Below are positions 2,248-63,777 of a stretch of 64,000 nt of DNA, piece by piece (the first letter of the stretch is position 1; every line of letters starts with the position of its first letter). Under the pieces are notes generated by a model. That model saw only the letters and a list, made by a program, of their open reading frames with translations, had not been told where the DNA came from and did no database searches. The position numbers were made by a program, and so were the translations under genes. The stretch is from Branchiostoma floridae (lineage: Eukaryota; Chordata; Leptocardii; Amphioxiformes; Branchiostomatidae): NCBI RefSeq assembly GCF_000003815.2, contig NC_049997.1, positions 7,536,707 to 7,600,706 on the forward strand. Direction: 5' to 3'.

Positions 2248-2333
2248 ATGAACTGTTTCAGTTTCCGCTGCTCCTGTTTCTGTTCCTCTCGCTCTCCTGG
2301 TCACCCCTCCTCCTCCGACAGACCCAGACGAAG
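2248..2333 (+). CDS. EPS8: Tentative first coding exon of the EPS8-family gene
   Basis: An acceptor-like CCGCAG lies directly before ATG at 2248. The open frame runs to a donor (AAG|GTAGAC) at 2334. It encodes a cysteine-rich N-terminus beginning [12 protein letters not shown]. The exon ends in phase 2 with AG, which joins the next exon at 7204 (starting with T) to give Ser-Gly-Tyr. Phase agreement is the main support. The cysteine cluster is unlike vertebrate EPS8 N-termini, so an alternative first exon upstream or in the N gap is possible. Confidence 0.4.
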
Positions 2334-38401: not shown

Positions 38402-41400
38402 TCAATTTTCTACAGGTAGTCTGCTGTAATATTTCATTTTCTCCATAGTGATGCTGCACAGCCAACGTGAAGGCGTCCTTACATCTTCTGAACGGACCAG
38501 GAAGTTGATTTGTCCGCAGAATGGGATCCTGCAGGGCTTCGGGCTCCGTCCACACTGGGCATTTCTCACGTGCATTGCGAATGCTGTGTACAACATGAAA
38601 ATAGCTGACTGAGTGTATGATACTATCATTAGCTAGGTCTCATCTCAGAGGCCTTGATGTCTAGTAAACATCATACTTTGCATCAAAAAAAGACTTGGAA
38701 AGATCGCAAAAGGGAGAGGAAAGTACATGTAAATGTTAATTCACATGATTAACGTAATCCTCGCAGCTAGAGTTTGTGTCTTTAGATTAAGTTTTCGAAA
38801 TAAAACTACCCAAAAGTCTATCAAACGGATCATGAGTTTAGGTAAATGTAGATTTACCTCTGGTCAGGAATTGTTTCTGGGGACATGTGACGACGTTACA
38901 CGTGTCAAGCGCATGGGACATCAACGCGTCCATGGTGTCACAGGGAAGACATTCGACATCAACGCAGCCCCATCGCAGATGTCTGTAGTAGATGACGAAC
39001 ATCATCTCCAAGATGTAGGGGTAGGCGTTAGCTCTGAAAGGCTGGTTGCAATCCTGTATTGGAGTGTTATTATAAGTACAGTTAGATTTTCCAACCGACT
39101 AGTTTCTTTGTATGGTGTAACTAGATACTATACATACGAGCACAAAAGAACATACGGAAAATAAAGGCAAATAAACTAGGACAGTTTTAAGAAAGAATAT
39201 GTGTGATCTACAATGTATTCAACCCTGGGTATTCGGGCCTCATGTGGAATGATTATCATCTAAGTTACTGTTAGACTTCCAGTTGCTATCAAGGAGGCTA
39301 TACAACCTTGTTTCTACTCATAGCAAGCATTCTATTCTTTGCTGTGACTCGTGAAACAAAAATGTCTTCTGATTATTACTTCGCCTTGAAGGACAGATAT
39401 GTAGGATACTAATACAAGATAATGTTCGTCTCACCAGTCATAATCATGATATGAATTATTACGTGTACCTTTGAAGCAGGCCACAGGACCTGTAGTATCT
39501 GCTGTGCCCTTTCTGGTCGCACGGGAAGGGGCGTCAACTGGAGTCAAAGGCAACCAATAGTGATCACTACAAACAAAAATAAAAACTAGAAAGGTAAGCC
39601 ACCAAGCACGATCTAGCCTGACAAACTACTGCTCTGTTCATTCTTGCTCAGACATTCTGGATAATCACCAACACCTAACACCTCCCCTTTTTCCTAGCTG
39701 CCAGTTGCTTTATTATGTAATCAATACCACAGGGTGTCTGATACACCTCCAGTAACCATGGTGACAGCCGTCTGGATCAGGTCATTGACTTTGTTTGGAG
39801 AAGAATCAGCGAAACCAATATGTTTCCCTTCTGTGGGGGGAAACATTAATAAGCACAATTGCTTGTTTACGCATTTGACCAATACAATTACACAAACACC
39901 AAGACTTGCTTTGCCAGAGAATTTTGGTGTCAGTTCGCTGGGTATACCGTATCAGATATGAAAAATATTTTATTAAGTATAGGCTAGCAACCCGTCCCTG
40001 TGCAATAAATACATCCTGCTACAGAAACAGCAATGGAACTTGCTGCTACTTGTTTACATGCCACCAGGCACTGCAAGGTCAACAGCAACAACATCAGCTA
40101 TTAGCTGTAGTATCGATGATTAAAGTCTATATTTACCTCCCTGCCAGAAATCCCCTGTAGGATTCTCTCCAGCACGTCGGCCACCAGGAGTCTTTCTGGT
40201 CTTGTCAGCCGGTCCCCTCTGTGGCCATCTTCGGCGATCAGTTGGTTCTGTGGAAATATCTTAAAGTTATTACAAGCGAACATTTTTGCAACCACTGAAA
40301 CACATTTTAGCTTGATCTTTAATGACAACTATACTCACCGGCGTACCAGAATGTCTCAGTAACTTTACTGAAATGATATTTACCTACCTATCACACTGGT
40401 GCCGTCTATGTTGTTAATAGATGTGCACTTTGGGCATATAAACATGTGTATCACCATGAAAGACGATGGTGACGGGTAAAAAAAATTTTATACCTGTAAG
40501 GAAACTTTCAAAATCATTTCACTGAACTTTGCATTGAAGACGTCATTATTTTTAAACATAAATAATGACCGTAACAAATATAACAAAGATAATTGTTATT
40601 TGTCTGGACAGGAAATAAGTAACAACATGCTTTTGTGTAGAGTCGGCACGAATAATAGACCTTGTATGGCCTCCTTCTGCCAATATTGACCATGGTAAAA
40701 TCCTAATAGTAATAATAGACCACCCATTCACTTATGTAACAAGGCAAACTAACTACAGTCGTGCCTTATCGATCGGCCTGGGAACCATTGGGTCCTCCTC
40801 CATGATCAGGACGAGAGGCACGCCGATGTACCGGTTGACCTCCCGGCATGTCAGCACGATAGCAGTCTTCCCATCGACTGTGCGACTGGAGGTGACATTA
40901 GTTGAGATGATTAACCTCAATGACTACAAATGTATATACAAACCATGTGCCTAAAATCCTGTCTTTGTGTTGAAGAATTCGTATCTACAAATACATGTTT
41001 ACATGCACATGTAGTGTGAAATTAAAACCCGCTTCTGTGACTCAGAAAAACAGACCCCACCACCTTTACCTCCCGGAACCTTAATAACAATGGTGACTTA
41101 TTTGCCCTTGAAACAGGGTTGGACTTCATATTCTATAATTAGATAAGGAATTGTGCAAATACTGCACCTTTTAACATTTCAATATTTGCTACATATGAAA
41201 ACACTGCATTCCCCAACACAGGTAGGTCGTAAGTTCGGTTCCCAGTCAAGTCATACAAGCGACTTTAAAATGGTACACACTGCTTTCTCTACCTAGCACA
41301 CTACATTTGGGAAATAGTATGGTACTTGAACACACAGACCACTTTCAGTGCTAGCCCCGTTGCCTCAATCTTTCCCATTGTAACAGGCAATTGACATCCA

Positions 41401-42468
41401 TGAGACAGTCATGCGACCTTTAACTGAATTAACAATGCCAAAATGACACAGACATTTGAGCTATGCGAACATTGTGTCTGGGTTGGATGACTTTATGCAT
41501 AAACCCATGAAACAGCCATGATTTAAGACTAGTTGAAATCCAATCCCTCACTATGTCCCCTCATAAAAGCATGATATTTTCTTGTTGTAATAAAGCATGT
41601 TGCACACTTCTTAGTACTTACTATTTCTTCAAGTTCCTAATGTTTGTGCTGATATGTCCACGGCTATCCAAAACCAGTCGGAGCAAACTTCTGTCAACCG
41701 CCTTCCTGGTCTTGTGATCAAGACTGCCAATATGACAAAACCACAAAATTATTGTCCACCATAAGTTTATGTCTGTCCATTTCTGCTTGTATCTAGTGCC
41801 TAGCACAACAGTTACTGTAACATCAAATGGCACCAGTTGTGCAAACATAGCATCAATATCCTCAACAAATTCTCATGAAATAACATTTTTGTAATTTTGC
41901 TTTTATACTAACATTCCAATAAGGCAAGTTGGTCTTATAATTATATGGCCTATTTTACGAGGTAATCGCATGCTATCATAATGGATACAAGTAGGCCTTT
42001 ATCAAAGACTTGGCGTAAAACTCATGTCATTCGGTGTATTTTGATACTCGACACAATGACCAATAGAATATACCCCCAGAATGTAATCATTATAATAGTA
42101 TTGATCTTGCAGTGGTAAGGTACAAGTACCTGTGTTACGAACGTACAGTGGAATCAAAAGTAAATACATTTGTTTACGGCATATTTATACGACAACCATT
42201 ACGACAACAATCAAGTAAAATGTAAAATAATGTTATAGACTTACTCTTCTCGGGTCAGTAGTCTTTGTGGTGTCGACCTCAGGTCTTCTAAGCTGTACGG
42301 TCTTAGTTTGTACATGCATATCGTCTGCTGCCCGAAAGGGTGAGAAAATTTCCTCCTCCATTGGTCTTGGGGTGTCCGTGAAGAAACCGGCACACAAAGT
42401 GCCTTGTTGTCGTTGAGCATTGAAACTATCAATACCCTATCTCCCGTGGGACTTTCACTTGCATCCAT
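38402..42468 (-). CDS. TAZ-A: TAZ-type zinc-finger protein with an unrecognised N-terminal region, 330 aa
   Basis: Minus-strand coding exons in order: 42468-42245, 41723-41622, 40885-40765, 40247-40137, 39537-39469, 39041-38858, 38583-38402 (stop TGA). Total 993 nt, phases 2,2,0,0,0,1. The first exon begins right after an acceptor (GTTGTAG then AT then ATG), implying a 5' UTR intron. Residues 1-209 match no family I know, but clearly match TAZ-B. Residues 230-293 fit TAZ zinc sites: H230-C235-C240-C243, H252-C257-C262 with Phe267 where a fourth ligand is expected, and H275-C281-C288-C293 with the CRIPFC end typical of TAZ (CPVPFC in p300/CBP). Intron 3 appears to use a GC donor at 40764-40763. 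TAZ domains usually bind transcription-factor activation peptides; the role here is unknown. Confidence 0.85.
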
Positions 42469-43960
42469 ATCTACAACAGAAGTGATTTTTTTAGATCAGT
42501 TGCCGAAGAGCAGACAAAATAGGTTCACCCGAAGAAAAGAAAATGGCGTCAATTTTTAGGATATCAATTTACATATATAAAGCAGCTTAGTACCCTGGGT
42601 TTAAAGTGTGAAGTATTCACCGTAATTAAGTTAAAACAGACCATTTCGAGGCAATGTGATTTAAATCGCTATCCATGAAAATCACACCAGAAAACCTGGC
42701 TCAATTTGAAGTAAACAACGCAACCGGCAACTCGCTGGCAAAACTTCTAAGCAACAGGTTTACGCAATACGTAACTGACCTGCATGTCAGTGGCGCCATG
42801 TTGCTTCTCTTACAAACTTAGATATTTTTACGTTAACATCAAGCTTTTGCCAAAACAGTCCGCAAAGCCGTAAATTAGATTTGCTATTTTTCATGTTAAC
42901 ATGCAGAAGGCAGCCTCTAGACCGTAAGAAGGTTCATTCTAAAAAAAAATAAAAACTCATTTGGGACAACCGATTTCTGTGAACTTCAAACCGACAAATG
43001 TGTCTTAGAGTGATTGTAAAGCTTAATAAACCACCGGTGCAGTTAGCTAAAATTTCATTTATCAACACTCTTGGTTTGGCGGTAAGCACTCTGTTCTGTC
43101 AGGCTACTCTGTCTTTCTTGAAATTTTATCTGGACTATTGTTTACCTTAGTTCCTTTAACTGGCGAACGGTTGCATCCATGGCCAATGTTGAAGAAACAT
43201 CTTCCGAAATCTTACAAAATGCAGCTAAAATACACAACTAGATATCTTCTATCTCTCGCAAGAATAGATGTGGGTGCGACGATGCCTAAAGTACGGTGCA
43301 ACTGCGCTGAAATGGCGCGAATTAAACCCCAGGTTCGTGAACAAAATAGTGCCACCCCACACAATGCACAGGAGTGAAAACAACTGCGTCACGTCAGAGT
43401 CATTGATTAGGTATCGATACTGATAGTTTGCAAAACAAATTCACAAAAGCCAAGATGAACGCAAGATACATCAATTTCCGCATTTATTGTATGTATTTTA
43501 CTTTTTATTAATTATGGAATTGTCATTAAAAAATGTAGTTTGACCTTTGACAGACATCCCGTGACTCGGGATAGTTGAACCTGTAATACGAGATTGTTTA
43601 CACCTGTCACCGACACTGTATAAACAAGACTGTAAATGCCTCAGGTGCTACGTCAACAGTGACCTATTCCAAACGTAAAGAACGTATTAAAATCTTTTAA
43701 ACTGTGCTTTAATTTCAATGTTCACATGAATTTTCCTTTACCCTTTAATTAATAACATTTGTTGTCTTTCTGACCGCAAAGATGTTCTGAAAAGGAATGA
43801 TAGATTTATTCCGTGATGACTAAGTACATAGAGTCGCCATCTTGAACAAACTAAGCACGTCTAAACAGGCTGTCAAGGTCGAAAGGTCCATTTTGTCCAG
43901 TGTTTTCCAAGCGCCATTAAACCTATCAGCAGGGACTGAAAAAAATAAGGCACTGTCAAC
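42469..43960. promoter_or_regulatory. Divergent intergenic region between TAZ-A and TNFR-A
   Basis: About 1.5 kb separates the two opposite start codons. It should contain 5' untranslated exons of TAZ-A and promoters for both genes. No TATA box was assigned. The arrangement is repeated at 52845-54499. Confidence 0.55.
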
Positions 43961-46900
43961 ATGAGAGGAATGAAAACAGCCCCTGTCTGGATGCAAATCT
44001 TATTTGTGAGTATGACAACATAATTTGTAGATAAAAAGATATTTCAAAGCCTTAAACGTGTTGCTTTGGCCATATTTCTTATTCCCTTATTGTGCTTTAG
44101 ATCTCCTTAAGTAAGGTGCGTTAATGACTTCAAATTCTGTGTGATGAATGTCAGACCCCCCAGAACGTACCTTGACCATGTAATTTTCCTTTATATTGTT
44201 CAGATAGAGTTGGAGATAAGGCGCTTTCCAAACAACATGTTTTATTTTTGTGTCTCATGTTGTAGATTGCATTCGTTGGCAGGGTCAGAACACGTGAAGA
44301 GCCTCCACTATGTCCAGCAGGTATACCGACTTAATGCTAACTATGTTACATCAGGTTTACCTGTTAGAAAAGATATTTTAGAATTGTAGTGTACCTTGGT
44401 TTGGGTGTGTCGCATACTATCGCAAGTAACCATCAGTTCTGCAAACCAGTTCCGTAAATGTAGCATTATCGTATATCAAACTCTCTTTCTGGACAGTGAT
44501 TCAACTGTTGAAATTAACATTGACTGACAAGAAAATTGTCCCCATAGAAATAGATAATGAACTACATTGTACTTATCATACCCCGCCCCTACCCCTACCC
44601 CACCCCCCTTAACCGATTAACCACCACTAGGTGTATTAGTACACAAGCTGGATGCCTATATAGCTGTGGAAAGGCTATAAAAGACAACTGTATTGTGTAT
44701 ACTGTCTGGATGTAAGTCAAAAGCACTAAGTACGCTTTATATGTGTATCTCGTCGTATTTCAGGCATGTACATGGACCAAAAAGAAGGTTGTGTATCATG
44801 CCCAGTGGGGACATATTCGCCTGTACCAAACACATTCACGAGGTGTTTACAACACACACAGTGTGATGTACAAAATATGATTTCATCACTTGGCACTGCT
44901 ACACATGACACCGTGTGTAGGTGTCTTCATGGGTACCATTGGGATGATGCAACAGAGACCTGTACCCGGAATCTGTACTGCCCCCCTGGGGAAGGAATCG
45001 TCGATGGTGGTAAGATAAGCATGTTTCTATCCATACATATACATAACAACGTAAAAACTTTTATTCTATTTTTAGAAATACTTCTAGCTATGACATTTCT
45101 AGCTGTTAAAAGTGTTTATCATGCCAGTCTGCTACTATACGTACTACTACGTATACTGTCAGCCAGTCTATTCAGTCAAATAGTATACTGCTGCTGTATA
45201 CAGCCACACAGTAATGCAGCACCGTGGTTTAGGCTGACATACAGTTATAGTATGCATTGTGTTTTCCTCCGTAGGTCAAGCGTGCACAGCATGCATCAAC
45301 GGCACATACAGCGACGAACTGTCAAATACTGAGCCATGTATCCCATGGACAGAGTAAGTAGGACAGATAAAGTCTATTATTCATTTTTTTCGTAGAACAC
45401 CGTAGCAGTTTATATGTTGTAGATATCTGGGGTCGCAAAAGAAATATTGGCACCCGCATGGATTAAATTATACTTTATCTATCACTACATAATTTGTAAA
45501 AGCTACTGTTGGTGGGTGCCAAAAGTAACATACAAGTAGTTCTCAGTTTGTTACTGACCTTACTTGATGTTGTTCTCAGCAGAACCATCTATGCTTCGGG
45601 GCTTCACCGCTTTGTCTATACATATGTCTTCAGTCATTATAGGAATCTCTGATCTACAAACTTTACGAAATGTATTGAGAAAATTTGTCTTGTGTTTTCA
45701 GCTGTAGTGACTTCGGATGGACAGTCATCTCAGAGGGTACATCAAAGAGTGATCGGGTGTGTTCCGGCCTAAATAGAACAGTTGAACCTACCACAACGAA
45801 CCCTGCCGTCGCTGGAAATCAACTAAGCTCTAAAGGTGATACTCTAGAATGCTCACAATATTTCGTGCGTTTATCCTTGACGACTGTTCAATAGCAAAGA
45901 AATCTTAGGCTAAGGAAAGAAAAAATAGCCAAACAAATGCCGTCAGCTTAATCGTAAGGTTATCATCAAATTATGGAATAGCTCAGAGAACCAAAAGAAG
46001 TTGTTTGTATTTCATTGTATGTCATTTACACTAATTTGATATTGACGTTCTTAAATACTACTTAGATAAAGAAGAGGCCATGGAGAGGCAGATGTCGACT
46101 CCCTCTACGCCGAGCACAATGGGAGTTAGCATTATCGTGTTGTCTTCTGTTTCCACTTTGGGCATCTGCATTCTCCTATCCTGGAAGGGATACAAGCATT
46201 GTGCACGGAAGAGACAAGTACCGGAAGTACTGTTAACCGATCATACAGCTGAAGAAGGTAAGAGCGACACTATTGTCTGCCTGTTGCTATACACAGCCTA
46301 GCCCTCAACGTCTTGTTAATAGTGATCTAAAGATCGTTAAAAGAACTGTACAAATTGTATGTTTGCTCGCAAGGACCTATATTATTACCAGGTGGACCAG
46401 TTATGATACGTTGCAAACATATTCAATACACTTTTGAATATTTTCTCTCATTATGCTATTGGATGCTTGGTGATGCTCTTACAAATACATTACAATGAAT
46501 ATCATATGTCTGAACCATTTTCATTAGCAATATTGGTGAACGAAGCTCCTGTTGACAAAATTGAGGAGTCTGTCGAATGTGAGGATGATAGTCTACACAC
46601 ACATCCAAAAGAAAAAGAGGTACGTCAAAAGATGTGATATCCTTGCATAGATACGACGAAAATAGTTTTGTGCCATACATTCTGAATGTAAGTTTGAGAC
46701 ATGAGGACTTTAGAATTTCCATAAAATGGAGGAGATATTTCATCATTTTGTCATGCGAAATATTTCTGTTATGACGGTTGACAGTTCGATATTTTTATGC
46801 TGAAATTGTAGAACGATTCGCCTATCATCGGGTACTATAATCTTGAACTATCTATTAATTGAGTAATATTCATTAATCGCTCCAGCATAAAATATGTTGA

Positions 46901-47949
46901 TGGTGTGTCTAAGCTAACGCCAATTTCTTCTTGCAGTGTTTTTCAGCTTGTGACGAACACTCAGATAGCCAAAGACTTCTAGATCCAACAAGTGATACAC
47001 GTCCCCAATGCCCAGACTCTGGCTATGAGGTGAGTATTGAACTTGTTGCTTACGTCAGTCTATGGTAGCTAAATGTCACTTGAGTAAACAACTGAAAATA
47101 TAAAGCGTTGAAATCGAAGTTAGTTTGATATTGTAAGTAATATGATATCGGATTTGGCATTATGATTGCGAGTTGTTATGTCATAGTTCGTTTCATGTAC
47201 ATTTTGTTTCAAATGTGCAGAATACGGGCTGTGAAGGTCTAGAAGACGAGGGACCAGCCACTGAAAGTGAAAACCACAGGGAGCGATCAACTGCCCAAGT
47301 GATCCCTCAGGTTTACACTGTGGACAGCACAGTTTCCCCTGTTGCTTCTACCGCGGCATCATCTGTGCAGACGTCTCCATCAAGCTTGGACTATCGAGAA
47401 GGGGCACAGAGGTTTGTCCTAGGAGTCTATTCTGATGGTAAGGATCACAAACACAAATTCACATGCAGATACATATCGTTGTGGCATAAGAAATTACAGC
47501 AAGGTACACTTTGGCACAGTTGTCCAATATTTTTTTGTCAATCGTATGTCCTAGTAAAATAGGGTTCTAAACTGGGGGCAAACAAATAAGATTCAGTAAA
47601 TCACAATAAGTGATGCATTCATATTGAGAATTGAGCTGGTCTAGATCTGATCTGTTTTGTTTTGTTTACAGCTCTGACGGTCGAAGTTGTGGAATATCTT
47701 GCGACAGAACTTGGAGAAGACTGGAAATATGTAGCCCCTAACTTAGGTCTAAAGCAGCACGAGATCGACCAAATTATCAATGAACATAGAGATGACATAA
47801 AACAGCAAATCTTTGCCATGCTTTGCAATTGGGAACAGGACAAAACAGGCGACGCTACAATTTCGGATATGAAGGAGACACTTTTGACGTGCAATAGACT
47901 TGAACTGTTAAGCCGCCTGCAGACCTTAAATGGCCATGCTGTGACATAG
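43961..47949 (+). CDS. TNFR-A: TNF-receptor-superfamily member with death domain, 476 aa
   Basis: Exons 43961-44005, 44266-44320, 44764-45009, 45275-45353, 45702-45835, 46066-46257, 46528-46619, 46937-47029, 47221-47437 and 47672-47949 (stop TAG) total 1431 nt with consistent phases. Residues 1-24 look like a signal peptide (MRGMKTAPVWMQILFIAFVG). Cysteine-rich repeats follow, with patterns such as CVSCPVGTYSPVPNTFTRC and CxCxxGYHWDDATETC. A Thr/Pro stalk leads to one transmembrane segment at about residues 205-226. The tail is acidic, then Ser/Thr-rich, and ends in a death domain (from about residue 385) with GEDWKYVAPNLGL and MLCNWEQDKTGDATI. Death receptors recruit death-domain adaptors for apoptosis or NF-kB signalling. 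The ligand is unknown, and no specific vertebrate orthologue is assigned. Confidence 0.93.
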
Positions 47950-49815
47950 AAAGGACTGGATCAGTAAAGTGTTTCGTTCATTATCACCAATGATACAAAT
48001 TCCGACTTTAAATACTGCTATTGATTCCTTGTAATTTTAACATAGTTTACAGTAATTCCTACAAATGAATGGACTATTATAGTGAAGTTAAAAATAGTCC
48101 CTTACATGTTTTATCAATCATTTAACTCATTTCCAAATACGAGAACAGATCACTCATACATGACTGTGCTGTTATCGATAATATTTTGTTGTTCTGTATG
48201 TAGCCTCGTACAGCCTATATAGCTAGTAATTGTTATTGGTTGCTATTCATTCATTTAACAAGGTAAAACAAAAGAATCATAAAAAACACATCTGTAATAT
48301 AGTTGTACAAAATGAGATCCATTTTGTGTGTATACTATTGTGGTGTCAACGTAGGTAGATGTGTTACAAGGTTACGTGCTATATTGCAAAATATGTACAA
48401 AATGTAATACGTTATGTATCTTGTGTATTTTAGTGTGATAGCTCTGTAGTTTCCTTGTCTGTCATGTGATAGTGTATGATGTACTTGTATATGTGTGCTT
48501 CATGTATAGGGTCACAGGGAGAAAAGCTTACAGAAATTTAAAGCTAATTTTGGATCCAAATAAGGTGAAAGATTACATGAATCTATGTGTGCTGACGCTA
48601 AGTGTATCTACATTTATTTGAATGTTATCTGCGTGCTTATTCGATATTCTACTTCTTTACCTTGGATTTCTACTCCAGAACATTGTCAATAAGTATCTCT
48701 TCTTTTGTGATTAGTATATTTCATTTCTGCAACCTTCACTTGGGCATGATGACATCAGTTGTAAAATGGATGGCGAGCAGAGCTCGAGCTCGATGTTAGA
48801 GCACTTCGAATTTAAAATGTTAAACGTTTCCTACTTTCTATTTTTCGGGGTCTATTTGGAATCTATTATATTTTATCTGAATAAAGGATGCATCAAAATG
48901 TATGATAGAATTTAGTCTTGTCCATTGTGTTGACTCTGTATCATAAAACGTCTTCAATTTGTGTGAGTTTGGAAGTATCAGTACTGTTTTCAGAATGCGA
49001 TCGTGATGTTTTGATTGTTTGCCAGTATCCTCAGTAACATCTGCTGATTACTATCGGCGCTCCTTACAATCTAGTGAAAGGAGCTCCGGTAGTAATAAGA
49101 TGGTACCCGGGCTAGTTTGTCAGTGTGAAACCTTTTGTCTCATCATTATTATCTTCATTACACAGAGAGTCAAATTAACTATTCATATATAAAACATGGG
49201 AAAGAATCGGCACATCATTAAGTATAAGAAACGGGATTGTAATGCATGATTACGAAATTATTACACTTTTAAATGTACAAAGAAATAGATCGCCACAACA
49301 TCGATCGTTGTACCTACATCTTTATGTATAAATATATCTTGTATATTGCTTTTAGTCTAATTTACATTTTTTTCTGTTTTGTCGTTTTACACTTCAACAG
49401 ACAGACAGACATAAGTTAATAAACATATTTACAGTATACAATGTATATCAGACCAATAGAAGAGCTACCAGTTGTCTAATCATCCTAGTGCCAAAATAGA
49501 GCTTTTGCGAAAGTAGAAGTCTCTGGGAGCTCTGACTTGCTAGTTGTTTCTTACTTCTTTTGCAAGATACAAAATGTTATATCTACATAATACAATCATG
49601 TTGTTTTTCCTTTTAGCCCCATAGATGTTAGTCTGCAGGATGCCTGTATTATTGCTTGTCTTCTTAATAGGTGCTATATATATATATGATGGACACCATT
49701 TCTAACGTTATGTACATGTGTGTTTGCTATATATGTCATATCAGGATGACCCAACAGGTAAGCATCCATTCTTATTCAGCAACACGCAACTCAGATTTGG
49801 TGTTAGCAAATTACA
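47950..49815. other. Convergent intergenic region between TNFR-A and TAZ-B
   Basis: Holds the TNFR-A 3' UTR (AATAAA at 48880) and the downstream end of TAZ-B. A block at about 49050-49115 with GGAGCTCCGGTAGTAATA and GATGGTACCC resembles one at about 60140-60215. No exon was recognised. Confidence 0.6.
48880..48885 (+). terminator. Candidate polyadenylation signal of TNFR-A
   Basis: AATAAA in the plus orientation about 930 bp after the stop codon. Closer variants cannot be excluded. Confidence 0.45.
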
Positions 49816-51504
49816 TTAGCTAACATTTTTGTCTGAATGCATGGCTAGAGGCTGACAAGGATAGATTATTGTGCGAATGATGTTTTCCACGACATCGTTG
49901 GTGATCCAAGGTCCAAGTTCTTCCCTTCTCTCCCATATCAGATGTCTGCTGTCGTCACAGAACGGAATGAAGCACGTTCCAGTTGTAGGGTGAGTACACG
50001 GGTGTTGAACATAATCTAAGGAAATTACGTGAGAGAGACACATAATTGTAGATTGCAACTTAATTAATACTCAAACAAATATTGAAGTACATAATCATCA
50101 AATGAGAACGCTTTCATGGACATGGGGACAGTAAATGATATCAACACTTTTGCTCAAAGAGCTCTATGATATGCTAGCTTTTGGAACTTTCTGGCACTTT
50201 TATAGAAATTGGCCACTTGCATGGGTCTTGGCTTAAGAAAAGAACAGATTTATCTGTAATTGTCCTCCTAGATCCTCTGAAAGCAACATTGGCAATCGAT
50301 TTGCTGGCACGCATTCATTACAAGGAAATCTATTTTCATTTACATGGTTATAAGAGATATTATATATGTACCTTTCACGAGAATTGCCCTATGTGTGCAG
50401 TTGATAGCACGGCACCCCACTGTCTTTGTTACAATGGCGATGAGGCGAGAGCAGCGATGACAGTCACCACAGCATCCCTGCTTTCTATGGCGTAGGAAAT
50501 CAACCAGGAGTCTTCCGACGCTCTCGCCTTCAGGTGCAGGCAATGGAGCACAGCGACACACTTGTGGAGGTAGAACCTGAGAAAACCGGAATGTTTGAAG
50601 CTCATTATTTTTCCTCGAAGGCGTACTTAACACAAAATGGGATGAAGACAGTTGTGTCATTTTGAAATAGAGCCTATTCTAAGAAATATTATCTTACCTC
50701 AGCGCCGTTGGATAGCCTTTTCCTCACTCTGCCTGTTTTTGCTCTAGTTGCAGATAGAGGGATGAGATTCAGCTGAAAAAGAGGGAAATGTAAAAATAAA
50801 TGTTTGTGAAATGCAATGATATACATGTACCCTTACCCACACTATCCAAAATTCTCACCTACCCCATGCCCTAATTGTAATTGATAATTCTTCAATTGAG
50901 GCACTACTTTACAAAATCAAAAACATGTGAAGGTCGACAACATAACTGGGAATTTGCTCACAGCTACAATCATAACTCAGATTTTCAATTGTGTTTTAAA
51001 ACAACAAGTAACCTACAAAATGCATAACTCACCTTGTAGTCAGGAAGACCTTCCACGAGACGTTCTACCATACTGACCGCCAGGTCTTCTTCATCTGCTG
51101 TCAGCCCGTCACCTCTGTTGTGTGTGTTTGTGACAAGGCTCGTCTGAAATTTCAAGGATGGGAGGAAAATGATTTGAGTACCTCTTAAGTGATGAAACGT
51201 TTTGATTTACCAATATTGTAATGAGCTAAATCTGTATTTTCTTAGTGGTATGACTTTCACACAATATAGGTGTAGTTCAACAAGCTATTTGCCACCAGAA
51301 AAGACCATAGCATATCCAGGTAAAAAGATACAAAATATATTTTTGCTGCAGTACCAGGGTCACATACTAGGTGTCCAAAATCGATCTTAACCTTTGTGTT
51401 CCCTACATCTGCCCACATAATAAATATAATGAAAATTAAGCAAGAGTTTGATGAGTAATGGTGACTACAAAAATCCAGAAACACACACACACACACACAC
51501 AGAT

Positions 51505-51555
<51 letters not shown>

Positions 51556-52844
51556 GGCAGACAGAAACACAGACATACACACAGACATACTCAAAACAAT
51601 ACCTTAATTTTTCATTAAGATAATAAGCTCTCTTTAAACACAAAGATACACAGAAAATAAGCATACACAATGGAACACACCTCATCGATTTGCCTTGGCA
51701 GCACCGGTGCCTCCCCTAGTTTCAATACGATGGGCCGGCCAGTCGTGCTGTTGAATTCTCGGCAGGACAGTGATATGGCTGTTTGTCCATCGTCTGTTGC
51801 ACTTTGGTGTAAATGCAATGGGATGTAATCAATCACATTGTCCTAATTATACACAAAATGATATCCGCAAAAATATTTTATCCAAACCACTGTCAAACCA
51901 AGTCATAGGCGAATACTTGCACAGACTATCTCTGATATGAAAATACCGATATTTCATCACATATTGCTGGACTTACTATTTTTTCATATGCCTGATCCTG
52001 GAATTGAAGTGTGAGTCGCTGTCAAGAAAGATGTACCAGAGCATCCCCTCAACTTCCTGGCGCTCTTTCTCACTGAGTCTTGAAACACAAATAAACAACC
52101 AATGAAATCAACACAAAAATAAATGAAATATAATAAAATTTCCACCAGCTTCGTTGTTTGAACAATGACAAAGTTTATCGCATATTTGTGCCTCATTGGA
52201 GCTAATTGCAGTATGTTAGATACACAAGGAATGACCGTACAGCTATCATATGCTTGACTGATATCTATAGTTATCATGACTATTCTCTCATGTAAATACT
52301 GACCCCATATGAATTCTCTTTGATTGTAATATGGTAAGGGTGATCTCTTTACACATCTTTAGCATGGCAATAATGTTGTTGTTGCCTCGTTTTCAATTCA
52401 AAATGGCGGCCCCTTTTCGCAAGTATTCAAAATACACAATAGAATGTCTGACTCCGCTATGTAATTTTATGTATTCAAAGTTATTTTACAGTGGTGGTGG
52501 CTATGGCAAGTATGATAAATCCAATCATTTGTTGAAATGATCTGACATGTATTAAAACTACGATGCCATTTAAGGTAATTGTACTTTTAACGTGGATAGC
52601 TATAATAATAATCTTTTGCACGTTCATACCTGTCGCCAGAGATAAAGTTGGCTTCTTGAGACTGAATATCTTGGACGGTGTAGCACCGCATGTTATACAT
52701 CTGGATGTAGCAGCTTTCCCATCCCTCTATGATGTTACAAGGAACGGTGAATTTGTTAAACTTGTCCTGGGGTTTTTCATTGGAGATTATGGCACCAAGG
52801 TGGTGTGTATCGTCCACCCTTGAAACCAAGGCGACGTTTGCCAT
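49816..52844 (-). CDS. TAZ-B: paralogue of TAZ-A, 342 aa
   Basis: Minus-strand coding exons: 52844-52630, 52078-51977, 51801-51681, 51143-51033, 50772-50698, 50576-50372, 50015-49816 (stop TAA). Total 1029 nt with phases 2,2,0,0,0,1, identical to TAZ-A; exons 2, 3 and 4 also have identical lengths (102, 121, 111). The ATG directly follows a CTTTGCAG acceptor, so a 5' UTR exon lies upstream. Shared words include RHMKKY against RNLKKY at the end of exon 2, and DGQTAISLSCRE against DGKTAIVLTCRE. The C-terminal TAZ-like domain has H238-C243-C247-C250 and an outer site ending C291-x4-C296 (CFIPFC). The middle site is eroded: Lys259 replaces the expected His, and its fourth ligand is absent. Confidence 0.85.
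51479..51553. repeat. (CA)n microsatellite
   Basis: Nearly uninterrupted AC dinucleotides in TAZ-B intron 3. It creates a spurious long minus-strand frame of Cys/Val. Confidence 0.98.
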
Positions 52845-54499
52845 CTGCAAAGGTTTTTACGAGTGTTTACACGATATTAGGGAGACTAAAGAAACAAACA
52901 TTATTCCTAGACAATGACGATGAATGTAAAAAAGTTAATGAATTTGTTTTGCATCCACATATTCTTCTAATCTTACCATGTACACGCCATAGACATCTGG
53001 AACATATTTCGTTGAATACTTGAACGGATATAGATTCCAGAGAACTATCCTAAATCTAGAGATATGTTTTCAAATTTTCATGGCCTCCTTGATCACCCAT
53101 TGCACTGATACATTTCGTATTAACATGACGCAGCAATTTGAACGTAACGAGGAAACGATTTGTAAAATTAATAACTCGACAGAAAAATATAGACAGATGC
53201 TGTAAAAGTTGCCAAATGATGCCCAAATTTTCTTTTTTACATCACTAAGCCAATACATGGATAACTCCTTTGGCAGTTGATTTCATCGAGACAAGTTCAG
53301 ACTGACTACCAGTTGTAAACAAGACACAACAACTTGATTAGTTGAATTAAAAAAGGGTGAAACAATCTTCGAAATACGGAGGTAAATTAAAAGAAGACCA
53401 TAAAGAAAACTATGCGAAAATGTACCTTGTTTTCTTGTTGTACCCGGAGACCAATATGATTAATGTAACTTTAAGAAGTTTTCATGATAAACTCGATTGT
53501 TTTCCCAAGAGTCCATCAGCACTGATCATACTTGAGAAGGCCGTCGCCATGTTGGATTTGGTAGGGACCGACCATTACCTGTATCCAGGTTTGAAAAAAA
53601 TGATGCAATCGTATGTCTGCATTGTGCAAGAGCATTATGACCGCAAAACACAGACATTCATATTTCCCACTATGAAGGAAAAATTGCTAACTTCTTTCAA
53701 TTTTCAAACTTGTCCCTTTAATTCTTTTTGATAGAATTTGATCACAGGCAAACTCATTCCATACTCAGTTCTGATTTAAGGGTCTAACTAAATATACACA
53801 TTATCAGAGCATTTTGACAACCCGTTAACATCACAGCATAAGAATGCTTATGCACACAGCATTAAAAAACAATTTTTGCTGTTCATTTATGATCCATGCC
53901 TATTATACAGTGAATGACCCCACGTAGCATGAGTAATGACCCTCAAACACGTCCCACCTATTTCTTTTGTTTGCTAAACAAAGCCTGTTACGCAGGTGGA
54001 AAGTCCCCACCGATCGCAACGTAACGTTAGGTAACTCTCAGTACAGCTTTCCCTCTTATTACCTTTATTTCGTTCAAGATCACTGCTAAATTTGTACATT
54101 CAACTAAGTTTCCATTTCTATACCAAGTATAGTGACGTACAAGTTGAAAGCTACATATATTAAAAAAAGTTAAGAAAATAGTTTCCCGGGATCCTTTTGC
54201 CGACGTGCAGAATTACACCTCAGTTACTTCCGGTATTTCGCTTTTACCTTTAACAAGTCAGTTTCTGCCTTTGCTTTGTCATGTCTGTACAGAACATAAT
54301 TGAAGTAGTCAACTAATATCCATTGGAGTGAGACAAATCAAATCCTGGGGCGACTTGGGGTTTTCCTATACATTTCTGTACGTAGATGTACAATATTCAT
54401 TCGTGTAGCGTTTTAAGTCTTTGTCAGATTACTATTTGTGTACTTGGAATACATATATTTGGCAAAGTCATAGATTTTAATACGTTTTATTCTTCTCAG
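52845..54499. promoter_or_regulatory. Divergent intergenic region between TAZ-B and TNFR-B
   Basis: About 1.65 kb between the TAZ-B ATG and the first confident TNFR-B exon. It should hold the TAZ-B 5' UTR exon, the TNFR-B signal-peptide exon and both promoters. It contains a kappaB-like site at 53998-54008 and an unexplained 124-codon open frame at 53357-53731. Confidence 0.5.
53998..54008 (-). promoter_or_regulatory. NF-kB-like site
   Basis: GGAAAGTCCCC on the plus strand reads GGGGACTTTCC on the minus strand, a full match to the GGGRNNYYCC kappaB consensus. It lies between the divergent TAZ-B and TNFR-B genes. One site can occur by chance; function is inferred. Confidence 0.45.
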
Positions 54500-57400
54500 G
54501 CCGTCGTCTTATTTCAAGCAGCGGTAAATATGGAATGGGAGTGTGAGCTCTGTGACCCAGGTACGTACAAATGTTAAATGGACCTTGAAACATATGTAAC
54601 CTTTGTTATGAGATATTCATGAGATACGGAATAGAAACTTATCATCGTAGGCTGTGATGTAGGCACTTCGTTGAGGTCACGATGGAGTGCCGGTGCCTGC
54701 GATTTCACCTTAAGTCAAAACCTATAAATTATTTCTGAAACTATCACAAGTTTGTTATGGACCCGTGACACGTTTTACCCAGTGAACGTTACGTGAAGCT
54801 TTTGTTTTATTTCAGGGTACTTCATGGTCAGTCCATGTGCCGATGGATTGCGAAATTCTACATTATGTGAGATGTGTAAGGGTAGAACCTTCACACCAAC
54901 TCATAACAATGAGACATCTTGCGTCAGATGCCGTGAACCAAATCACGTCGTTTATTCTGAGGAAGACACACCTATCGCCTGTCGGTGTGCAAAGGGGTTC
55001 CACAAGAGACACAGCACTTGTGTACGGAACGCATTTTGTCGACCAGGAAAGGGGATACACAGAGGTGGGTGCCTGTCTAATGCCTAGGTTACACATAGCC
55101 GAATTTGGCTCCCGACACTCTCCCGACTATGGTTTAGGAGTGATTCGGGAGCTAGTCGGCTGTAGTCGGCTGGCGTTCGGCTGAGTCGGCTGGCGTTCGG
55201 CTGTTGTCCGGCTGAGTCGGCTGGTGTTCGGCTGCTCCATCCGAATGTTTTGAAATGTTCAAAACATTCGGCTCTGAACGGTAACTCTGGAATGGGTCGG
55301 TTGGTGATCGGCTGGTGTTCGGCGCGGTCGGCTAGTGTTCGGTTGGTGTTCGGAGTAAGTCAGCAGTCAAATTAAATCTTAACCATGGCATAAACATTGC
55401 TGATTTACTCCCAGCTTGTTTCCAACTTACCAATGATTCACCCCAAGACCGTAGACAAATCTCTGCTAACTCATTTCCAAGCAAAAAGACTATTGCCAGG
55501 ACGTAGACGAATCACCCCCGAACTTCCCACGACCGACATCCAGCCAAAAACAAAAAGAACCATAAATGCCGCACTGGAGCTATATGTGATCCAAATTTGA
55601 TCTCTTGGTGATGTTTACAAAATAGAAGAAAGGATAATCTTGATTAAAAACGAAAATGAGCACTCTTTTGAAAATCGATGATTATGTCTATTTCAAGTCG
55701 AGAGAGGGTCGGCAATCGGTTGGGGATCAGTCAGGAGTGATTCGGCAGTCTGCGGCTAGAGGTCGGGATGGTTGGTGATAGGTTAGTTTGCATTTGGGAC
55801 ACAGTCGGGAGTAAGTCATTTACTGGTCGGGAGATGTTCGGGACATGTTCGGCGCTAAAAAAATAGGCGTGGCCTAAACTGGTCAGACTACTCCCGAACT
55901 ACTGCCCACTTGGGTCGGCTAAGAGTCGGCTAGTGTTCGGGAGCCAAAGTCGGCTATGTGTAACCTAGGCATAACAGTACAGACGCTTCACTCTTTACAA
56001 GCAAACCCACCGTTATCGATTCGTGACAGGATGTTTATTTTGCCAGCACCACAGTCGCTGCTGTCGTTTCATTAGAAAGAGTTGCAATCATTTCCTTATG
56101 TTTCAACCCAACTATATGTATTAGTGTTTTCTTCATTTTCAAATTCACTCTTTTAACATACAAGGAAAATCAACCAAAGTCATATAAAGTAATAATGAGG
56201 CAATTTACGTGCTTAGTTTCTTAGATCTACAAAAGTATAGATACTTTGGACAAAACCTAGTACGTGGGGAAGAGGTCAATGTAAAAGGACAAATTTCCGA
56301 ATCTAGTTAGCATTCTCAGGTTTTGCTATTTCATAAATTACAATTGTCATTGTCATTGTTATCAATCTCCCTCAAATGTATCTTTTCTCAGGGGGCTGCC
56401 AACATTGCCCTGAAGGACAATTCAGTAACCAATATTCCAACACACAGCACTGTCGCCCTTGGACGAAGTAAGTAACAGGTCTAATTTGAAAACATCTAAA
56501 TCTGACTTTTCTGCCCTCCTGGCAGATTTTGGCAACCCATATTCAAACTTCTACAATTAAAGCTATATGAACACATTTTGTAACAATGATTAATCAACAG
56601 GACCGTGAAAACAGAATTTCAAGAAAGTAATATATGGAATGTAACCAAACTGTGTTGGCTATTTCTCAGTTGTACCGCAAAGGGAATGATCACGATGTCC
56701 GAGGGAACGTCAAGAAGGGACGTGATCTGCAGAGATACAAGTGCGATGAGAGGAAGACGTCGGCACTACAGGAAACAAACAATGGACGCCGAAAAGGAAA
56801 CGGTAATCTCTACAACACAGGCTCCAGCCAATACATCAGGTCAGCAGAAGTGTCATATTTGTTATTCTAACTACGAACTACTTGTTATTCTACGCTTTAG
56901 ACGACATTACCCTGACTACATTTGTAACAATTAGATGTGTTTACACTTAGGCCACGTTGATTTGATTATATGGATGACATCCGCGCTCGCACCAATTTTC
57001 GGCCATTTCCAAAAAAAAAAAAAGTTTTCGACCAAACAATAAATTGTGCAAAGCAGCTGTAAAATGAGCACAAATATTCCGTAGATTGAAAAAAAAGTAT
57101 CAGAAAACAGATAACTAATGCGCCAAAAGTAGTTACTCAAGCAACTGGATATGGTTTTGAAACGGTCAGACGTTTCGGATAGAATCCACTATCCTTCGTC
57201 AGTGACACTGAAGAGATCTGGAAGAAACAGGTCTTTTATACTCTAACTATGAATGAAGACAATTTCAAATGTCCAATAGGAAAGGTTGTAAGATAATTAA
57301 TGCCAGATAACTAATGCCATATGTAGAATGCCAAAATGAATCTAAAGTCAAAGAATAAGATGTGAAAGGACGGAAAGAAAAAAAAATCTATTGTTGGTTG

Positions 57401-59872
57401 TGGGAGGTACCAGTACAGAAAATTCAGGTCCAGAGGATCATGGTATACCATACTATGTGTGTTTAGTCCTATGCTCAACATTCCTGGCCACTTTAATTTC
57501 ATACTGAAGACAACTTTTTTTTGGGCCAAACTTTTTTTTTATTCGCTCGTTCGCATCAGTTTTGGAGTTCCCTGAGGATGTCATCCATATAATCAAATCA
57601 ACATGGCCTTACAGATCTACTCATGATGTAATGGCAATTTGACTGTCTTTATTGTACTTCTATGAAATGTATGGGTTAATTTGTGGTAACTTGAACATCA
57701 TTTTAGGAATTTGTCCTTATTTTCTGTAATGGATTCGATACCTTACGGAATAGTATGGGTACATCAGACTTCTGCGAAAAAGATGTCTGCGGAACCCTGA
57801 CCTGGGGGATAACATATGACCGCATTTTTCCACAGAGAGGAAAATTCTGAGACAAAAGGGGATAGCTGTAGCACCAACCTCGTCTTTGAAAGTGATCGCT
57901 ACAACAACAACTATGATAACACAATCAAAAACTAGTGATCCACGCAGCCAAATAGCCGAGATTTCACCTGCTGTGTCCAAGGATGATCCGACTCATTGGT
58001 TAATAATCATAACAATCGCTGTTATTATGCTGCTACTGCTTGTAATCGTCATGCAAATTACCATTTGCCAGAGGGGACTGAGAGAGAAAACTTCGAAAAG
58101 AAAAGGTAGGATATCTCTCTTAAAGATTAATGTATAAATTCTGTATCGGTCTGTTAAGTACTAAAGACATCATAAGATGTGATGACTGCAAAATGCCTCT
58201 AACCCTGATTAGATTATGTTAATAAATGGACATGAATACAGATGAATAAAAGCAATTCGGATGTAATTTGGCTCGAATCTGTACATTTTGTAACGTGTAG
58301 TATCTTTTGTTTTGTTTTGTGAGCAATGTTGATCGCTAACCAAGCTGCGTGTTGCCTATCAGTAACCTGCAGACCAAAACAGGAAAGTCGAGACGGAGAG
58401 AAATCTCCCGTGCACCATAGGGCTGTCTTGATGAGTGACGAACAGATTCAAGTTCAAGAAGAACCTTTCGAAGTTCCCACAAGTCCAACTGAGTTCGAGG
58501 TAAAGAAAGTAATTTTTCAAAGTATGTAAATGACATAATCTAATAACTTTGATAATTTTATTACTCGCTTTCTGACAAGTGTCCTTACACTTCCTGGATT
58601 ACAGATGAAATACATGCCATTTAGAATTCTAACAACAACAATTGAAATGATCAGCTGTGCAGCATTGATGTATTTGTCAATTTGTGGTTTGCACCGCCTA
58701 GCCGCTTAGTAACAATTGTGTTAACTATAAGCGTCTGATACTAGTATACTTATTGTACAAAGGGTCATCTTCATGTGAACGAACCACCACCGTATCACTC
58801 ACAAGATTTGCAAGTAATAAACAACTGCAACTGTAACTGCAACAGTCACGAGGTAAGAGCCGACTTTTTCATATTTCCAGGACAACTTCTTCAAGGGACC
58901 TACAAACAACTATGTGCCAATGCAACGTTTTTATTACCTTCATGTAAATGTGTTTATTGAAATTGTTACTACCCTTACCTCTTCATACGGCACACTCGGA
59001 TAAGTCAATCAACGACACATTCAAACTGCAAAAGTTTCTACTACAATTTTGGTTGGGTCATAAAACAATGATAAGGATGATGATGATCGGCAGAATCACG
59101 AACATAGGAAAGAAAATCTTATCTTTGTTATATGTTTTGGCAGAATTGGGATGATACACCCGAAAATCAAGACTACGAAGGAGAGGAAACCAGTCCCAAA
59201 ACCCACATACCCCTGGGGTTTTCTGTCTCCATGGAGTTTGCAAAAACCCCATTGGCGCACTCCAGCGAATCTCTATCCAGCACGCACGTTTCCTCTGCTT
59301 CGTGGCAGACGTCTCCTTCAAGCGTGGCATACAGGAAGAGGATCCAAGAACGTCTTGCGCAAGTTGTGACAAATGGTCGGTCCACGTTAGCTGTCTCAAG
59401 TATTATCATCATGCATCAACATAACGGTTGAAGCTAATCATGATATTCAGTGCTGGTTTGTGTTTTGAACATAACGTTGCTTCATTTTGTTGACTTGTAA
59501 AGTGGTAAAAAGTACAATGGAAATTGACAAGTCTTTGCATTATCTTACTTGATTTCATTCTTTCTTACAGTGCTGTCGAGAAGCGCGATGGAGCATCTTG
59601 TAGGAGGACTTGGGCGGGAGTGGCAAGCGCTGGCTCAATGTCTGGGGCTTACACCGGCCGAAATCGATCACATCTTAAATGAAAATAGAAGCGATTTGGA
59701 CAAACAAATCTATGAAATGATTAGGCGTTGGCAACAGGGTAGGACAGGAGAAGCGTCCATCTCTGAATTGTATGGAGCACTGCTGGAGTGTAACATGGAG
59801 GAATTACACAACAAGTTGGTTTCTTTGGAAGGTGCTGGTGCTGGCTGCAAAACTGAAACGATTATTCAATGA
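54500..59872 (+). CDS. TNFR-B: tandem paralogue of TNFR-A with death domain, at least 528 aa
   Basis: Exons 54500-54560, 54816-55064, 56392-56467, 56670-56839, 57836-58105, 58363-58499, 58763-58852, 59144-59375 and 59571-59872 (stop TGA) join in phases identical to TNFR-A exons 2-10. The signal-peptide exon is not secure: an in-frame ATG at 54386 is continuous with the first exon, but the paralogue has an intron there. Cysteine-rich repeats include CELCDPG, CEMCKGRTFTPTHNNETSC and CRCAKGFHKRHSTC. One transmembrane segment lies at about 57997-58065 (WLIIITIAVIMLLLLVIVM). The tail has a PPPY motif near 58783, a CNCNCN run near 58824, and the motif WQTSPSSVAYRKR shared in position with TNFR-A. 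The death domain (59571 on) reads GREWQALAQCLGLTPAEID and RRWQQGRTGEASI. Confidence 0.92.
55081..55971. mobile_element. 891-bp inverted-repeat element with TAA target duplication
   Basis: Ends TGCCTAGGTTACACATAGCC and its exact inverse, flanked by TAA at 55078-55080 and 55972-55974. The left inner part (about 55140-55350) is a run of imperfect GTCGGCTGGTGTTCGGCT repeats. The right inner part has related GTCGG words. The 3-bp TWA duplication fits PIF/Harbinger-type transposition. No transposase frame. It lies in the TNFR-B intron between exons 54816-55064 and 56392-56467. Confidence 0.9.
56950..57608. mobile_element. Inverted-repeat element with TTA target duplication
   Basis: Terminal repeats of about 34 bp start GGCCACGTTGATTTGATTA and are matched at the right end with one difference. 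TTA flanks both sides. The interior includes GTCAGACGTTTCGGATAGAATCC and CCTTCGTCAGTGAC, a word style I associate with widespread invertebrate repeats. It sits in a TNFR-B intron just before the transmembrane exon. Confidence 0.87.
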
Positions 59873-62967: not shown

Positions 62968-63777
62968 ATGGAGCCGCCACACGTGGGTAGAAAGGTTGGG
63001 GAACTTGCGGTCGCTGTGTTGGAAGGTTCCCAGTCTCTTATCGCCCTGAAAGTTCCCATCTCCACAACAGCGCCCGCAACTCCCTGGGAGGAGTCCTTCT
63101 CATCGAAACTCAGACTAAAAGGCTGGTCAGAGGATGGCTACGTGCGTCTCTTCGACATACAGAACCACTGTTTGGGTAACCCGATGTCACAGGATGTTGA
63201 ATTGATAACTATAGACAGGTAAGAATGTGATGAAAGACGCTATCTATATATATATTCCGTGCGTAAGTACACAAAGGAGGTGATCATGATAACAAAGAAA
63301 ACAAATCAGCTAGTCGCTTTTCAATGCACCTTTATAGCAACACCAAGTGTCTTAATTGCTTCAGCTCTCTGTACAAACTTAAGTTCAGCATGAGTATGAT
63401 ATAAATGTATACGGTCACTTTCACTTTAACAAATCAGCCATTGACCTGTACTTTACGTAAGCCGGGGAACAATTACATAACATTTAACAATAACAATTAT
63501 AACAAAACATATCACAACTTTATAACAGCATCCAAACACATAAAACAATCACACAATAAATCATGTTTGCATATTTGTAATACTTATACAGTTTATCAAG
63601 ATGTTTTCTAATACTTTGCCTGTCTGAAGAACTAAATTTTGTTTACCTATACTTCAGTATCCCTGACGACATGAGGAAGGAGGCAATGCAGGCTGACATC
63701 GAGGACAAGATGAGGACTATGTTTCTTGAGGAAGAAGGAGTTCACACGAGATCCAAGATTCGCCAACTTCAAAAATA
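62968..63777 (+). CDS. TAZ-C: third member of the TAZ-A/B family, 5' part only
   Basis: Exon 62968-63218 starts with ATG directly after ACGACAG, so again an acceptor sits at the start codon. It ends in phase 2 at a GTAAGA donor. Exon 63658-63777 joins in phase (AG|T gives Ser) and ends TA|GTAGGA, also phase 2. It matches exon 2 of TAZ-A and TAZ-B, ending RSKIRQLQKY against RNLKKY and RHMKKY. The exon is 120 nt rather than 102. The first exon encodes VAVLEGSQSLIALKVPIS, comparable to VSMLNDNKALCVPVS of TAZ-A. The zinc-finger exons would lie beyond the window. Confidence 0.8.

Follow-up and report, generated by a model that had tools for sequence, protein, structure and literature searches.

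Head-to-head death-domain TNF receptor and TAZ-like finger genes in a local cluster of the Branchiostoma floridae genome

Why does a gene for a death-domain TNF receptor stand head-to-head with a gene for a small TAZ-like finger protein, twice over, within one short stretch of the genome of Branchiostoma floridae? The stretch concerned, called the window below, comprises the 64,000 nucleotides (nt) at positions 7536707-7600706 of chromosome C19 (NC_049997.1), and four of its genes were rebuilt exon by exon: TAZ-A and TNFR-A, which form pair A, and TAZ-B and TNFR-B, which form pair B. The simplest reading of the sequences would be that one ancestral divergent pair was copied as a unit. To the fuller proposal, in which the pair was duplicated as a unit and supplies a co-regulated receptor and TAZ2-like adaptor or competitor that tunes receptor output, we would give an even chance.

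Three head-to-head gene pairs

TAZ-A (38402-42468, minus strand; positions without a prefix are those of the window) has seven coding exons, at 42245-42468, 41622-41723, 40765-40885, 40137-40247, 39469-39537, 38858-39053 and 38402-38583, which give an open spliced frame of 334 amino acids (aa) from ATG to stop. Its exon 3 requires a GC splice donor, which is the single doubtful splice and the weak point of the model. TAZ-B (49816-52844, minus strand) has a complete frame of 342 aa, also in seven coding exons, at 52630-52844, 51977-52078, 51681-51801, 51033-51143, 50698-50772, 50372-50576 and 49816-50015. The exon lengths of TAZ-A and TAZ-B are 224/215, 102/102, 121/121, 111/111, 69/75, 196/205 and 182/200 nt, three internal exons being equal in length, and the six intron phases are the same in both genes (2,2,0,0,0,1). 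The two proteins are 31% identical by BLASTP (E 1e-42), and TAZ-A is homologous to TAZ-B and to four further genes, TAZ-C, TAZ-D, TAZ-E and TAZ-F.

TNFR-A (43961-47949, plus strand) has a complete frame of 476 aa in ten coding exons (43961-44005, 44266-44320, 44764-45009, 45275-45353, 45702-45835, 46066-46257, 46528-46619, 46937-47029, 47221-47437 and 47672-47949), with a hydrophobic, transmembrane-like stretch in exon 46066-46257, as judged by eye, and the death domain in exon 47672-47949. For TNFR-B (54500-59872, plus strand) nine coding exons are modelled (54500-54560, 54816-55064, 56392-56467, 56670-56839, 57836-58105, 58363-58499, 58763-58852, 59144-59375 and 59571-59872), giving 528 aa without a verified first (signal) exon; the transmembrane-like stretch, again recognised by eye, is in exon 57836-58105 and the death domain in exon 59571-59872. 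Nine exons are common to the two receptors and have equal phases (exons 2-10 of TNFR-A: 0,1,1,2,1,1,0,0,1; the first value for TNFR-B is assumed). According to a preceding sequence-only reading of this DNA, the death-domain TNF receptors and their neighbours agree between the two pairs in order, orientation and intron phases, and the gene models bear this out. Pfam Death is matched above its cut-off of 22.6 bits by TNFR-A (49.6 bits) and TNFR-B (43.1 bits), and Pfam TNFR_c6, with a cut-off of 29.4 bits, is matched above it only by TNFR-A (39.4 bits; TNFR-B 24.6 bits). The cysteine-rich repeats of TNFR-B are thus sub-threshold, yet it is homologous to TNFR-A with the same exon phases.

A short motif, [QE]TS[PV]SS..YR, precedes the death domain in TNFR-A (47350-47405), TNFR-B (59300-59340) and TNFR-D, a further receptor described below (locus L018, about 2050-2350, minus strand), and is a possible docking site.

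Beyond the window, 214 kb of C19 including it were read with profiles of both families. The local cluster, at C19 about 7.57-7.73 Mb, mixes death-domain TNF receptors with the divergent TAZ-like family, and it holds a third head-to-head pair, C, about 100 kb from the window pairs. The seven exons of TAZ-C (C19:7683555-7690254, minus strand) join into a frame of 328 aa that stays open from its ATG to the stop codon. TNFR-C (plus strand) begins with a signal-like first exon at C19:7691539, and its second exon, at 55 nt, equals that of TNFR-A in length. The seven TAZ exons recur in pair C, and so do the first exons of the receptor. Pairs A, B and C agree in order, orientation and intron phases, with protein identity down to about 27-48%. 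The earlier claim of a unit duplicated and kept together is strengthened by this third pair, while the word cassette used for it is too tidy, since TAZ-D, TAZ-E, TNFR-D and TNFR-E are arranged otherwise.

TAZ-D (C19:7708791-7716240, minus strand) has an open seven-exon frame from ATG to stop, with an N gap within an intron, and lies downstream of and on the same strand as TNFR-D; TAZ-E (C19:7599674-7604076, plus strand) is placed likewise with respect to TNFR-B. Six exons of TAZ-E could be spliced and exon 7 was not found. Its first exon is in the window (62968-63218, plus strand) and the gene continues outside it, with exons 2-6 at C19:7600382-7604076; the A/B profile alone detects this first exon weakly (E 0.034), a profile with TAZ-E among its members gives E 5e-25, and the exon is backed by exons 2-6, which follow it in order and in phase. 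On the receptor side, TNFR-C (plus strand), TNFR-D (minus) and TNFR-E (minus) have ectodomain and death-domain exons in order, read as exons and not as full gene models, and TNFR-F (minus) is represented by a death-domain exon only; a death-domain fragment lies near C19 7.668 Mb. Pfam Death scores of TNFR-C, D, E and F are 50.4, 69.5, 26.3 and 23.4 bits, all passing the cut-off, and the TNFR_c6 scores of the ectodomain exons of TNFR-C, D and E are 18.4, 24.9 and 26.4 bits, all below theirs. The head-to-head arrangement accordingly involves three of the five TAZ-like genes of the cluster and three of the five receptors that have both ectodomain and death-domain exons.

TNFR-E, TNFR-F and the fragment (C19:7680.8, 7698.3 and 7667.6 kb) are near-identical copies of a second death-domain subtype, whose expansion is apparently more recent than that of TNFR-A to TNFR-D. 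Two leucine-rich repeat (LRR) protein frames are also found inside the receptor cluster, at C19:7639803-7641452 and C19:7727413-7728465, both on the minus strand.

Common origin, joint control or mere proximity

Two unrooted TAZ trees were built, one with TAZ-F and one leaving it out, TAZ-E being aligned without exon 7. They contain one split (100/99) that separates TAZ-A, TAZ-B and TAZ-C (with TAZ-F) from TAZ-D and TAZ-E, and TAZ-A groups with TAZ-F (99/98). A common origin of TAZ-A, TAZ-B and TAZ-C to the exclusion of TAZ-D and TAZ-E is therefore likely from the sequences; as the trees are unrooted, the two sets are two sides of one split, and a clade of the first three is not established.

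The whole genome (513 Mb) was searched exon by exon with TAZ-A, TAZ-D and the TAZ-F finger, which gave 11, 8 and 14 matches, respectively. The matches at E<=0.001 all lie either in the cluster or at C19:9.93 Mb, a site 2.3 Mb from the cluster on the same chromosome, where TAZ-F is situated; the weaker matches of one of these searches, at E 0.036 and up, include TAZ-C. Since TAZ-A as query missed TAZ-C, D and E, such exon searches are insensitive, and distant relatives elsewhere may have escaped. A match of TAZ-A at C4:33.47 Mb (E 0.018) showed by eye open frames without the family structure and is regarded as spurious. The five best matches of the TNFR-A death domain, itself included, are all at C19 7.58-7.73 Mb, among the matches listed (150 of 233 candidates). 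Other TNFR-like or death-domain sites exist elsewhere, for example at C18:5.97 Mb and C14:13.36-13.38 Mb, and the same insensitive searches reported no TAZ-like relative there. Canonical TAZ exons with death-domain neighbours were also noted at C19:16.66 Mb and on C215; for the TAZ exons there, inspection by eye points to CBP/p300 TAZ1 and a PDB match to TAZ2, and we take the nearby death-domain frames to be there by chance. At C10:13.30-13.39 Mb, weak matches resembling a death domain (E 0.02-0.11) recur regularly, about every 3.2 kb.

Between the divergent genes of the window lie two intergenic regions. Region A (42469-43960, 1492 bp), between the two start exons, is a candidate bidirectional promoter; region B (52845-54499, 1655 bp) separates TAZ-B from the first modelled exon of TNFR-B. 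The distance between coding starts is 1493 bp in pair A, 1285 bp in pair C and, measured to the first modelled TNFR-B exon, at most 1656 bp in pair B, which agrees with the spacings of about 1.5 and 1.7 kb proposed earlier for pairs A and B. If an unverified candidate signal exon of TNFR-B at 53420-53464 is right, the distance in pair B falls to 576 bp. Bidirectional promoters usually span less than 1 kb, and 1285-1656 bp exceeds this.

It is from this arrangement that we infer co-regulation, or a common pathway, of the pair members. Each pair would share one divergent regulatory region, so that a receptor and an intracellular partner would be made in the same cells. The receptor step, a ligand and then a death-domain adaptor, would follow ordinary TNF receptor knowledge. 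The TAZ-like protein, with its N-terminal region (exons 1-5) and TAZ2-like finger (exons 6-7), may act as an intracellular docking adaptor or competitor; the finger could hold on to activation segments, short and helical, in transcription factors or in proteins of the receptor complex, and the protein, acting without an acetyltransferase, would in this way tune the output of the adjoining receptor.

Several observations weigh against such a reading. Neither TAZ-D nor TAZ-E, both members of the cluster, has a head-to-head receptor, and the cluster scan, N gaps apart, found no head-to-head TAZ gene for TNFR-D or TNFR-E. No non-coding block is common to the three divergent regions, and when these were compared for NF-kB consensus-like matches, two were found, in region B only, with none in region A; the sequence thus gives no evidence for a common regulator. 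In the receptor tree, which was built without the death-domain fragment(s) at C19:7667.6-7668.0 kb, one of five inner branches is well supported, and with so poor a resolution matching histories of the receptor and TAZ-like families cannot be demonstrated. Pairs lying side by side would also be expected from tandem duplication alone.

A serious rival is that the genes are passive neighbours, two unrelated families co-expanded by local segmental duplication with no shared regulation or pathway, which we consider a real possibility although short of probable. The other arrangements of TAZ-D, TAZ-E, TNFR-D and TNFR-E, which indicate that rearrangement is tolerated in the cluster, and the lack of a conserved non-coding block both favour it. 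On the other hand, TAZ-A, TAZ-B and TAZ-C have kept their orientation and the spacing of 1285-1656 bp despite heavy protein divergence, while TAZ-D and TAZ-E demonstrate that alternatives were possible.

It is also conceivable, though in our estimation unlikely, that each pair forms a receptor-effector module, in which each death receptor would have a dedicated TAZ-like, transcription-factor-binding adaptor made from the same divergent region and serving as a matched nuclear or cytoplasmic modulator. The logic would resemble that of a paired sensor and response regulator, and the same finger would have been recruited in TAZ-F behind TPR and near CARD and DED exons.

Nature of the finger

In TAZ-A the finger is encoded by exons 6 and 7 (38402-39053, minus strand), the join of which cuts through it, and it was identified by comparison of a family profile with PDB, by hhalign against the genome's own CBP TAZ2, and by a table of zinc ligands. 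Among 177,635 distinct PDB sequences, the best match to the profile of the six members is p300/CBP TAZ2 (E 0.0026), aligned over three zinc motifs, and 12 of the 21 rows among the PDB matches listed are p300 or CBP chains; the others include Rtr1 (E 0.044 and 0.10), Myc and NAP1 chains. With hhalign the same profile reaches a probability of 79% (score 34.3) against the own-genome CBP TAZ2, versus 15% against a partial TAZ1 exon. The highest score among 150 full column shuffles is 17.7, the TNFR cysteine-rich region scores 13.1, and 300 shuffles in which the Cys/His columns were held fixed do not exceed 25.7, all thus being below 34.3.

Three findings pull in the other direction. Single members reach only 0.15-9% each against TAZ2. 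In an earlier run with fixed Cys/His columns, one of 150 shuffles was an outlier at 130.5, which is unexplained, possibly a file artefact, and was not reproduced. The canonical TAZ scheme has three HCCC zinc sites with 12 ligands, and the fourth ligand of site 2, the last Cys, is absent in all six members, TAZ-D and TAZ-E having lost more; counted against this scheme, TAZ-A, C and F keep 11 ligands, TAZ-B 10, TAZ-D 6 and TAZ-E, for which no exon 7 was found, 3. Zinc site 1 is CxxC, and an extra Cys upstream of the finger is invariant in all six. Pfam zf-TAZ (PF02135) gives no match to TAZ-A, B, C, D or E, with none at E<=1 for TAZ-A and TAZ-B; its one match among the six is TAZ-F, at 16.0 bits (E 0.017), below the cut-off of 25. 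Because of the Pfam failure and the missing ligand we prefer the name TAZ-like for the finger and do not count it among the members of the TAZ family. Of the TAZ finger proposed in the sequence-only reading, the distant kinship with TAZ2 has therefore stood and the family membership has not, and by its sequence the finger appears to be a distant, ligand-altered relative of TAZ and not a canonical TAZ domain.

The failure of zf-TAZ in five of six members, the low values of single members, the lost Cys with the CxxC of site 1, and the Rtr1 chains among the PDB matches would also be expected if the finger were a lineage-specific Cys/His-rich domain that has converged with TAZ2, in which case transcription-factor binding would not follow. 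We think this quite improbable, given that TAZ2 is the best of all PDB sequences over three motifs and that the six-member score lies above every one of the 300 shuffles that kept the Cys/His positions. The weakest rival, that the second pair is an assembly artefact, a haplotype or a misjoin, could appeal to N gaps elsewhere in the cluster, yet it is extremely improbable and the earlier worry about an assembly error is refuted, since the A and B copies are about 29-40% identical in protein, differing at about 60-70% of residues, 26 kb scanned contain no repeat of at least 40 nt except a CA-type simple repeat, and neither pair has an N run inside it, from which pairs A and B are to be seen as old paralogues and not as an assembly duplicate.

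Ahead of the finger, the N-terminal region (exons 1-5) has no Pfam match above cut-off; the best, PIN_4 in TAZ-C (15.9 bits, cut-off 21.9), is regarded as chance, as are Lys_Orn_oxgnase in TAZ-B (11.2 bits, cut-off 21.3) and a metallo-beta-lactamase PDB match of TAZ-A (E 0.24). TRADD-N was tried on account of a possible beta-alpha-beta-beta-alpha-beta pattern, seen by eye, and of the TRADD-N expansions of lancelets, and was rejected, the hhalign probability being 0.1-0.3% against eight own-genome TRADD-like_N frames and one further frame.

TAZ-F and comparison with known systems

The TAZ-F finger, at C19:9.933 Mb, is 45% identical to that of TAZ-A and splices in frame after a TPR exon (TPR_12, 54.5 bits), open to the stop. 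Upstream on the same strand are CARD, DED and two FN3 exons above cut-off, together with a TRADD-like_N match below it (16.8 bits, cut-off 23.7). Placed in order, the CARD, DED, weak TRADD-N, two FN3, TPR and TAZ-like exons occupy C19:9921617-9934592 (loci L001 and L002) on one strand and are possibly one gene; a LINE-like reverse-transcriptase frame, recognised by eye on the other strand, lies between TAZ-F and the CARD/DED/FN3 exons. This context may link the finger type to death-fold genes, and if TAZ-F and the CARD/DED exons are one gene, it would be a direct fusion of the finger to death-fold signalling.

The TNF-receptor superfamily includes members with a death domain such as TNFRSF1A, FAS, NGFR and EDAR. 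Like these, the cluster receptors have a signal exon (TNFR-A and TNFR-C), cysteine-rich repeats and a C-terminal death domain in its own exon, with one hydrophobic stretch that by eye may be a transmembrane segment; unlike these, they sit among TAZ-like neighbours, and no vertebrate orthologue is assigned, none having been sought. The finger is like CBP/p300 TAZ2 in the order and approximate spacing of its Cys/His ligands, as well as in the PDB match. It differs in the absent last ligand of site 2, in the extra invariant Cys in front and in being split by the exon 6/7 join; moreover, the proteins have no other CBP/p300 domain by Pfam, and the genome's own CBP/p300-type TAZ exons are elsewhere. 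Plant BT proteins are built as BTB-TAZ-calmodulin-binding. They too are small, and they carry a TAZ-type finger close to the C terminus, preceded by a further region, whereas Pfam does not identify the N-terminal region of the TAZ-like proteins as BTB and the genome is that of an animal.

Closer to home are the TRADD-N/DED/CARD scaffolds of Branchiostoma, in which death-fold domains have been recombined with other modules in a lineage-specific way (eLife 2021, PMC8195603). TAZ-F, behind TPR and with CARD, DED and FN3 upstream, is like them; the N-terminal region of the TAZ-like proteins, without a TRADD-N match, is unlike them. The main text of that paper has TAZ only in a reference title on Yap/Taz. 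A stretch of 0.6 Mb at C17:18.30-18.90 Mb contains 50 of the 69 TRADD-like_N matches among those listed, in line with the lancelet expansions described there (PMC8195603). In the titles and abstract beginnings of the open-licence papers listed we found no description of a receptor/TAZ-like pair or family.

The possible significance lies in the partners of TAZ domains. Those of CBP/p300 grip p53, among other proteins. The activation domain of RelA docks on CBP TAZ1 (PMC3760798). TNF-receptor signalling reaches NF-kB factors, which are themselves read by CBP/p300 TAZ domains. If the proposal holds, a stand-alone TAZ-like family tied to death receptors would be a second, unexpected coupling of TNF-receptor signalling and TAZ recognition, and one could then test concretely whether the conservation of a divergent gene pair points to partners in a pathway.

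Apart from the cluster genes, an EPS8-like gene covers part of the window's first third, where an EPS8 spectrin-like exon is found at 17035-17379 on the plus strand (Pfam E 1.7e-23).

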